Of a DNA stretch of 64,000 nt, positions 31,125-34,263 are shown piece after piece. Numbering within the stretch: position 1 is the first letter of the stretch; each line of letters opens with the position of its first letter. The notes under the pieces are model-generated. The model had not been told where the DNA came from and did no database searches. It worked only from the letters and a program-made list of their open reading frames with translations. The stretch is from Desulfuromonas sp. CSMB_57 (GTDB taxonomy: Bacteria > Desulfobacterota > Desulfuromonadia > Desulfuromonadales > Syntrophotaleaceae), in assembly GCF_020194955.2 (NCBI RefSeq), contig NZ_JAFCIY020000024.1, positions 1 through 64,000 of the forward strand, in the 5' to 3' direction. Made by a program: the position numbers and the translations under genes.

Positions 31125-33680
31125 TCAGCCTTCCGCCGGCAACCCGGCTGGAAAAACGTCCTCCGAGCCGGCGAGAAAGGCCTCCAGCCGCCGCAGAGCC
31201 TCGAGCGTCGGCGCCGCCACCAACGGCACCTCGGGCAGGGAGCGCAGAAACATGCGCCCATAGCCTTTTTTCACCACCCGTGCATCAAGGATCAGCACCA
31301 CGCCGCGATCGGCACGATGGCGGATCAGGCGGCCGAAGCCCTGTTTGAACTTGATGACCGCCTGCGGCACGGTGTAGGCCATGAAGGGATCGCCGCCGCG
31401 GGCGGCGATGGCCTCGGCGCGGGCCGCCAAAACCGGTTCTGTCGGCACCTTGAAGGGCAGGCGGGTGATGATCACCTGCTCCAGGGCACGGCCGGGCACA
31501 TCCACCCCTTCCCAGAAGGAATCGGTGGCAAACAGCACGCTGGCCGGATCGGCGGCGAATTTCTTCAACAGGCCGTGGCGATTTTCCTCGCCCTGGCGCA
31601 GGCAGGGATAACCCCGGGCGCCGAGGATCGGGGCCAGTTGCCCATGGACCTGGTGCAGCAGACCGTAGGCGGTGAACAGCACAAAGGAACGGCCGCCCGC
31701 CGCCAGCACTGCCTGCTCGGTCAGATCACGCACCATCTCCGGATAGCCGGCGCGCCCCGGCTCCGGGATGTCCGTCGGCACCACCAGCAGCGCCTGCCGA
31801 GCGAAATCAAAGGGGGAGTGAAGCAGCAGTTCGTGCATCCGACCCGGCTCGATGCGATCCAGGCCGACCCGACCGGCCAGATAGGCGAAGGACTCGCCGA
31901 CGGTCAGGGTGGCGCTGGTGAGTACCACGCTGCGAAAGCGATCATAGAGTCCCTCTTTGAGTTCGCCGGCCACCTCCAGAGGTGCGGTACAGAGCCGGGT
32001 GAGCAGCCCGCGACCGCGGCCGATGCGGGCCTCCCCCACCTCGAACCAGGCGCAGGTACCTTCATCCTCGTGGATGAAGAGCGCCAGATCGGCACCGATA
32101 CCGGCCAAACGGCCGATAAGGCCGCGCAAATCCGTCAGGGGCGAGGCCAATTTTTCAGCCACCGCCTCAGGCGCACGTTCGCAGTCCAGCAGCAGGGCCT
32201 GCAGCGCCCCGGCCAGCTCGCCGATGCCGGCGGTCAGGCGGCGCAGCCGCTCCACGGCGCTCTGCCAGAATTCTCCGGCCCGCAAATCCGGCACCACCCG
32301 CAGCCGCAGGTCTTCCCGGCCGGCCTTCCGGCCGAGATGTTCGAGCAGCTCCTGGCCCAGGCTTTCCAGCAGTTGTGGGGCCTGATCGAACAGCTGCTGG
32401 CGAAGGACCAGGGTCGTTTCCAGGCGCTCGTAGAGGCGCCGGTACAAGACATCTTCGCTGTCGGGCAACTCCTTGGCCAGCAGGGCCAGCAACCGCGGCA
32501 AGGCGCCTTTGTCCGGCTTGCGCGGATGGCGCAGCTTGCCGAGCAGGCGGCCGAAGGTAAAGCGGCTGACCTGGGTGGCGAAGTAATGGGTGGCAACGTC
32601 TTCCAGGTGATGGGCCTCGTCGAGAATCACCCGATCGAAGGGCGGCAGCACGGCGGCGGCCGTATAGTTGTCCGTCTGCCGGCGCAATGCCAGATCCGAC
32701 AGCAACAGGGCATGGTTGACCACCAGCAGGTCGGCCTGGGCGGCATGGCGCCGGGCCTTGTGGAAAAAGCAGGCGCTGTAATGGGGACAGCGCACCCGGG
32801 CACACTGGTCGACCTCGCACTGCACCTCTTCCCAGACTTCCCGCCGCGGCGGCACCGGCAGGTCCTCGCGCGAGCCGACCTGGCTGCGTGCGCCCCATTC
32901 CAGCAAGGCAGCGAGTTCGGCGTTGAGTTCGGGATCGAACAGGTCCGGCTCCAGCCGCGCTCCCTCGGCGCGCCGGTGACAAAAATAGTTGTTCCGACCC
33001 TTGACCAGAACCGCCCGGAACTTGAGACCGGTGGCACGCTGCAGGAAGGGCAGATCCTTGCGGATCAGCTGCTCCTGGAGGTTGATGGTGTTGGTCGATA
33101 CCACCAGCCGTTCTTCGTTGGCCAGGGCCCAGAGAATGGCCGGCACCAGATAGGCCAGGCTCTTGCCGGTGCCGGTGCCGGCCTCGATGACCGTCACCCG
33201 ATCACCATTCAGGGCTTCGCCCACCGCCAGGGCCATGCGCAGCTGCTCGGGACGCTCCTCGTAGCCGGGGAGGGTGCGGGCGACCACTCCCGTGGGGCCG
33301 AGAATGGCGGCGATGGCCTGGGGTTCAAGGTGCTGCGCCCGGCGCGGAGAGAAGGGCTCCACCACCCTATACACACTTTCCACAGGGTTATCCACAATCA
33401 GAAAGCCGACGCCCTGGGCGCCGAGCCGGCCGGCAATATCCAAATCGGCGGCGGAGGGCCGTAACCGGCCGCCGGGATGATTGTGAATCACCACGTCGCC
33501 GTAACGGCACTCCTGCAGAATGGCGGGCACCGCCTGCTCATTGCCCCGCGCCAGCACCCGCGCCTCGACGACACGCAGATCGGCATCGGTGCGGCCGAGA
33601 AAAAAAACCTCCTGACCGCCGGCTTCGGCGATGGCCTGACGCAGAAAAGCGGCAGCCCGGGCTGTAAAACTCTGGTCCAT
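31125..33680 (-). CDS. DinG/XPD-type helicase with N-terminal RadC-like JAMM domain
   Basis: 851 residues. Residues 1-115 form a JAB/MPN-type domain with the RadC-like metal motif: E24, H66-N-H68-P, S76 and D79. From about 150 onward it is a superfamily 2 helicase of the DinG/XPD class: Walker A EAGTGTGKS at 166-174, STNTINLQEQL, an Fe-S cysteine cluster (NNYFC and CEVDQC, VRC, SAC), DEAH in ILDEAHHLEDV, and the late TDSFWEGVDVPG and GRLIRHRADRGV motifs. It should unwind DNA 5' to 3'. Gram-positive DinG carries an exonuclease domain at this place; here a JAMM domain replaces it. ATG at 33680 has AGGA upstream. Confidence 0.9.
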   Translation of the reverse strand: MDQSFTARAAAFLRQAIAEAGGQEVFFLGRTDADLRVVEARVLARGNEQAVPAILQECRYGDVVIHNHPGGRLRPSAADLDIAGRLGAQGVGFLIVDNPVESVYRVVEPFSPRRAQHLEPQAIAAILGPTGVVARTLPGYEERPEQLRMALAVGEALNGDRVTVIEAGTGTGKSLAYLVPAILWALANEERLVVSTNTINLQEQLIRKDLPFLQRATGLKFRAVLVKGRNNYFCHRRAEGARLEPDLFDPELNAELAALLEWGARSQVGSREDLPVPPRREVWEEVQCEVDQCARVRCPHYSACFFHKARRHAAQADLLVVNHALLLSDLALRRQTDNYTAAAVLPPFDRVILDEAHHLEDVATHYFATQVSRFTFGRLLGKLRHPRKPDKGALPRLLALLAKELPDSEDVLYRRLYERLETTLVLRQQLFDQAPQLLESLGQELLEHLGRKAGREDLRLRVVPDLRAGEFWQSAVERLRRLTAGIGELAGALQALLLDCERAPEAVAEKLASPLTDLRGLIGRLAGIGADLALFIHEDEGTCAWFEVGEARIGRGRGLLTRLCTAPLEVAGELKEGLYDRFRSVVLTSATLTVGESFAYLAGRVGLDRIEPGRMHELLLHSPFDFARQALLVVPTDIPEPGRAGYPEMVRDLTEQAVLAAGGRSFVLFTAYGLLHQVHGQLAPILGARGYPCLRQGEENRHGLLKKFAADPASVLFATDSFWEGVDVPGRALEQVIITRLPFKVPTEPVLAARAEAIAARGGDPFMAYTVPQAVIKFKQGFGRLIRHRADRGVVLILDARVVKKGYGRMFLRSLPEVPLVAAPTLEALRRLEAFLAGSEDVFPAGLPAEG

Positions 33681-33852
33681 GGATGATCCTGTCGGCAAGG
33701 CAGGCTATTATAAGTGAGACGGGAGCGGAAGGAAAGTTATCCCGTACCCTTCGCGGCACGCCTTCTGGGTCACCATGGCCTTGGCCGAGGCTTGACGCCC
33801 AGGCAGGCGACAGCTAGAATCCGTCGACCGTCACCCGATCCGGAGGATTGCC

Positions 33853-34263
33853 GTGTACAGCCTGAAAGTCATGGAGCACTTCTGCAACCCACGCAACGTC
33901 GGCTACCTGGAGGAGGCCAGCGTCGCCGTCCAGTATGGCGACCCGGCCTGTGGCGACTGTCTGTTGATTTTCCTGCGGGTGGAAGGAAACGTGATTCGGG
34001 ATATGAAATACAAGGTCCTCGGTTGCGCCGCCGCCATCGCCACCGCTTCGGTGACCAGCGAACTGGCCATCGGCCGCACCATCGAAGCGGCCCTGCAACT
34101 CACCGAAGAGCAGGTGGCGGAAGCTCTGGACGGCCTGCCGCCCGGCAAGATGCACTGTTCCAACCTGGCGGTGGGCGCCTTGCGCGCCGCGTTGCGGGTC
34201 TATCTGAGCCGGCAGGAAGAGGCCGAGGTGGTGATTCGCCGCTCCGAAGCCGACACCCGGTAA
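33853..34263 (+). CDS. Stand-alone IscU/NifU-N type Fe-S scaffold
   Basis: 136 residues, only the scaffold domain: C33-G-D35 (PACGDC), C58 in VLGCAAAIA and C102 in GKMHCSNLA are the cluster ligands, with extra C36. It is similar to the N-terminal third of the NifU at 9991 but lacks the ferredoxin and Nfu domains. The start is GTG with GGAGG 5 nt upstream. It is divergent from the helicase gene, which is itself an Fe-S protein, and has no desulfurase next to it. Confidence 0.88.
   Translation: MYSLKVMEHFCNPRNVGYLEEASVAVQYGDPACGDCLLIFLRVEGNVIRDMKYKVLGCAAAIATASVTSELAIGRTIEAALQLTEEQVAEALDGLPPGKMHCSNLAVGALRAALRVYLSRQEEAEVVIRRSEADTR

Follow-up and report, generated by a model that had tools for sequence, protein, structure and literature searches.

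The window, a stretch of 64,000 nucleotides from Desulfuromonas sp. CSMB_57, carries on its minus strand a chromosomal gene for RadC-like DinG. The open reading frame is intact, with its likely start at the ATG at 33680 (the mechanical start is the TTG at 33698) and its stop codon ending at 31125, and a scaffold gene lies next to it in divergent orientation. The features are as follows:

31125..33680, minus strand: RadC-like DinG, 851 aa, a JAMM/RadC N-terminal domain fused to an XPD/DinG-type Fe-S DNA helicase
33351..33680, minus strand: RadC-clade JAMM/MPN domain, residues 1-110 (PF04002 above cut-off, conservation, fold match to 2QLC and to JAMM1/Rpn11)
33276..33350, minus strand: variable linker, residues 111-135 (column entropy)
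31125..33275, minus strand: helicase MD1 / Fe-S / Arch / MD2, residues 136-851
33853..34263, plus strand: NifU_N/IscU-like scaffold gene, divergent from the helicase gene (PF01592, 128.7 bits; a neighbour only)

The original prediction, that a RadC-type JAMM domain and a complete DinG-type Fe-S helicase share one reading frame, is borne out by the intact reading frame, the Pfam matches and a full set of metal ligands. Within the first 120 residues, where a profile match had been anticipated, residues 8-87 match the Pfam RadC family PF04002 above its curated cut-off of 22.1 bits (24.2 bits with the whole protein, 31.1 bits with the domain alone); PF04002 is also matched by 103 of 104 aligned homologous domains. 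The metal-site motif E24...H66-N-H68-P-x6-S76-x2-D79 is present as first described, and the protein thereby combines the family match with the HNHP-x6-S-x2-D signature of the RadC clade. Each of E24, H66, N67, H68, S76 and D79 is kept in 120 of the 121 aligned sequences, which come from many phyla, and P69 and P75 are invariant in all 121; because homologues from so many phyla retain the ligands, the motif is not a product of chance. The conserved glutamate, two histidines and aspartate form a putative metal centre of the kind that characterizes RadC-like DinG. When the JAMM domain was used as a profile, RadC (2QLC) came up at 5e-7, whereas AfJAMM reached no better than about 0.2, so that the domain groups with RadC by sequence. 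The linker that follows is more variable (mean column entropy of 2.6 bits, versus 1.7 in the JAMM domain).

One homologue (L050:1459-3912) is a fusion with an intact helicase in which the five metal-site positions are occupied by G/R/R/E/E, and its JAMM region gives no Pfam RadC match. Judged from its sequence, this protein can be regarded as a natural ligand-less control, and its existence means that one lineage or more may use the domain non-catalytically.

Structure prediction points in the same direction. AlphaFold2 models reached a mean pLDDT and pTM of 90.7 and 0.86 for the full-length protein (70 homologues) and of 88.1 and 0.80 for the N-terminal domain alone (104 homologues). In Foldseek searches, E. 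coli DinG (6FWR) was the best solved structure for the whole protein, and the JAMM domain alone retrieved RadC 2QLC first, followed by CSN5 and Rpn11; with a second structural aligner, Rpn11, PfJAMM1 and 2QLC were tied at a Z of about 9. The predicted fold, the positions of its strands and its structural neighbours are all consistent with a JAMM site.

The helicase part is complete and has the hallmarks of the XPD/DinG Fe-S family: Walker A (K173) and Walker B motifs, DEAH at 354-357, a Helicase_C_2 match at 9.6e-44 and four Fe-S cysteines (C234, C293, C298 and C304), with the Pfam domains running, after RadC, from DEAD/ResIII/DEAD_2 to Helicase_C_2. A sequence search of solved structures retrieves DinG of E. 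coli and of S. aureus first and XPD after them. Among NCBIfam models, YoaA scores best (579 bits, below the equivalog cut-off of 680 bits) and DinG models come next; a predicted helix at 825-836 corresponds to the C-terminal alpha7 helix in MD2 that marks the YoaA-like helicase of RadC-like DinG. No second Helicase_C_2 match occurs in the genome, and the fusion is the only XPD/DinG-family helicase found there. Cysteines 234, 298 and 304 are invariant in the homologue alignment. The position of C293 is a serine in three Calditrichota/KSB1 homologues (L095, L098 and L105), which suggests a 3-Cys-plus-Ser or otherwise altered cluster in those proteins.

The architecture is not new. According to the original prediction, known DinG variants carry either no extra domain or an exonuclease at this end, a premise that the literature contradicts: RadC fusions to DinG/RAD3-like helicases were mentioned by Iyer et al. 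2017, who cite their own 2011 paper (PMC5512222), and Cheng 2025 gives the name "RadC-like DinG" to one of ten DinG subgroups, describes it as highly conserved and gives Desulfuromonas soudanensis as an example species (PMC11981726). In that review, Zn2+ is modelled at the E/H/H/D site, JAMM metalloproteases are the fold neighbours, and a DALI comparison finds the RadC-like domain without similarity to nucleases; it adds that there is as yet no research on RadC-like DinG and that no activity has been shown for any member (PMC11981726). What the present analysis contributes is an apparent single origin, the ligand-less homologue and a correction concerning HolC.

RadC-like DinG is an old and widespread protein. 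The fusion gene is present in 38 of 40 relatives, and a scan of GTDB representatives, many of which are metagenome-assembled genomes in which single odd placements need care, recovered fusions from Desulfuromonadales, Geobacteraceae, Planctomycetota (including Brocadia and Jettenia), Calditrichota, KSB1, Acidobacteriota, Hydrogenedentota, Dadabacteria and others. In a quickly computed tree of the helicase part only, which had E. coli DinG as its root and took in 23 JAMM-less DinG/YoaA-type helicases (E. coli DinG and YoaA included), all 36 fusions fell on one side of a branch with a support of 100. On this tree the JAMM-helicase combination appears to have arisen once; the fusions were found with a domain-containing query, and losses are possibly under-sampled.

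The surroundings of the gene are less constant. It is flanked here by genes for an HldD-like epimerase and RtcB, and no conserved operon partner was found, the neighbours differing from lineage to lineage (in Hydrogenedentota, for instance, a PGI-family gene). The suggestion that the adjacent IscU-type scaffold serves the Fe-S cluster is not supported, as the scaffold is one of four NifU_N genes in the genome and is a neighbour of the helicase gene chiefly among relatives: an IscU-like gene lies near the helicase in eight near-relative loci and in only 3 of 77 other scanned cross-phylum loci. In 11 KSB1/Calditrichota-group loci (L095, L098, L099, L101-L103, L105-L107, L109 and L117), a gene for an RMMBL-type metallo-beta-lactamase sits just upstream on the same strand and is possibly co-transcribed with the fusion gene. 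A separate full-length RadC is encoded elsewhere in the genome (G000:C58:18330-18689), so the fusion does not replace RadC. With regard to LexA/SOS control, a trait of YoaA, neither the E. coli-type SOS box, which has no match just upstream, nor a second pattern, of the Geobacter LexA type, occurs in the window at counts above chance level. A role as a defence system was also considered and rejected; the only models matched by the whole protein are DinG-type ones, which recognize its helicase, and the isolated JAMM domain matches none.

Taken as a whole, the protein is very probably a JAMM hydrolase-type module mounted on a YoaA-like Fe-S helicase. By analogy with YoaA and DinG, the helicase would move 5'-3' on single-stranded DNA and would open forks or similar structures under replication stress. 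The JAMM domain is expected to bind Zn2+ and may, as a hydrolase attached to the helicase, process whatever unwinding lays bare, in which case hydrolysis would be coupled to the 5'-3' opening of forks under stress. What RadC-clade JAMM domains do is a question of long standing. Iyer et al. 2017 argued for nucleic-acid processing from positional equivalence to nucleases (PMC5512222), and the nuclease proposal was repeated for the RadC clade in a 2012 paper from the same group (PMC3482391). We tentatively propose that the JAMM domain has zinc-dependent hydrolase activity, either as a DNA nuclease or as a peptidase for proteins on DNA, and that its cutting is coupled to the unwinding by the attached helicase. 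As to its substrate, nucleic acid may be slightly favoured over peptide, because the domain is a compact member of the RadC clade (HNHP) and is placed like the exonuclease or endonuclease domains of other DinGs.

Against this reading stand the reportedly normal DNA-damage sensitivity of E. coli radC mutants (cited in PMC11981726) and the lack of similarity to nucleases in the review's DALI comparison. The fold neighbours of the JAMM domain are mostly peptidases, many of them JAMM peptidases with a Z of about 9, and together with the presence of all JAMM catalytic residues, including E24 and S76, they speak for a peptidase or isopeptidase trimming proteins that the helicase encounters, be they DNA-protein crosslinks, proteins of the replisome or a ubiquitin-like modifier. 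Such an activity is somewhat unlikely, given that RadC-clade JABs are said to be without the groove for the ubiquitin tail (PMC5512222), that 103 model residues align to a 133-residue stretch of Rpn11, leaving the domain without Rpn11's extra segments, and that the one prokaryotic E2 family searched gave no match, in a search that had no positive control; ThiF-type E1-like proteins are present. A mainly structural or sensing domain, one that binds metal without hydrolysis and serves to position DNA or a protein partner, would fit L050, which retains the domain with all its ligands lost. Several MPN-domain proteins are likewise non-catalytic. We nevertheless consider this role unlikely, since the retention of the ligands and the catalytic glutamate across phyla in all homologues but one goes beyond a purely structural need. 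If the coupled zinc hydrolase that we propose is correct, a member of the RadC clade would acquire a defined activity, and a fusion of apparently single origin with strictly kept ligands, together with its ligand-less homologue, offers a good system for distinguishing nuclease, peptidase and sensor.

HolC, the clamp-loader subunit chi, bears on a further alternative, in which the fusion protein is the equivalent of YoaA and acts through chi. Cheng 2025 states, as a supporting observation and not a defining feature, that organisms with RadC-like DinG lack HolC (PMC11981726). This absence does not extend to the present genome, which has HolC at G000:C60:60206-60610 (99.4 bits; cut-off 25.4) and in this respect displays a trait of YoaA. 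A match was obtained in 19 of the 21 genomes searched, namely this one and 18 of 20 relatives, with two of the 21 (G009 and G012) giving no helicase match. A search of 24 more distantly related fusion carriers from the same class, the same phylum and other phyla, 14 high-quality genomes among them, found no HolC, and among the genomes tested its co-occurrence with the fusion is restricted to the window's order. The review should be corrected on this point, but the correction does not in itself support a partnership with HolC. Although the helicase is nearest to the YoaA model and HolC is present in this genome and most of the relatives, the R619-T620 pair that YoaA requires for HolC binding (PMC8378479) has no counterpart in the aligned C-termini of the fusion proteins, and with the distant carriers lacking a detectable HolC we regard an action through chi as quite improbable.

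Compared with known systems, the protein shares with the RadC-like DinG subgroup the N-terminal RadC-like domain with its E, H, H, D site and the YoaA-like helicase with its C-terminal alpha7 helix, and differs in that HolC is found here and in most relatives searched, whereas the review describes it as absent (PMC11981726). With E. coli YoaA it has in common the helicase core, the Fe-S cysteines and the extra C-terminal helix, but YoaA is without a JAMM domain and its HolC-binding residues are not found here. ExoDinG (S. aureus DinG, 8ZEF/9II8) likewise bears an extra enzymatic-type N-terminal domain on the same helicase, although this is a 3'-5' exonuclease domain where RadC-like DinG has JAMM. 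Stand-alone RadC (2QLC and the genome's own copy) shows the same HNHP JAMM motif and fold, whereas the genome's own RadC is a separate 244-aa protein that has an N-terminal extension and no helicase.
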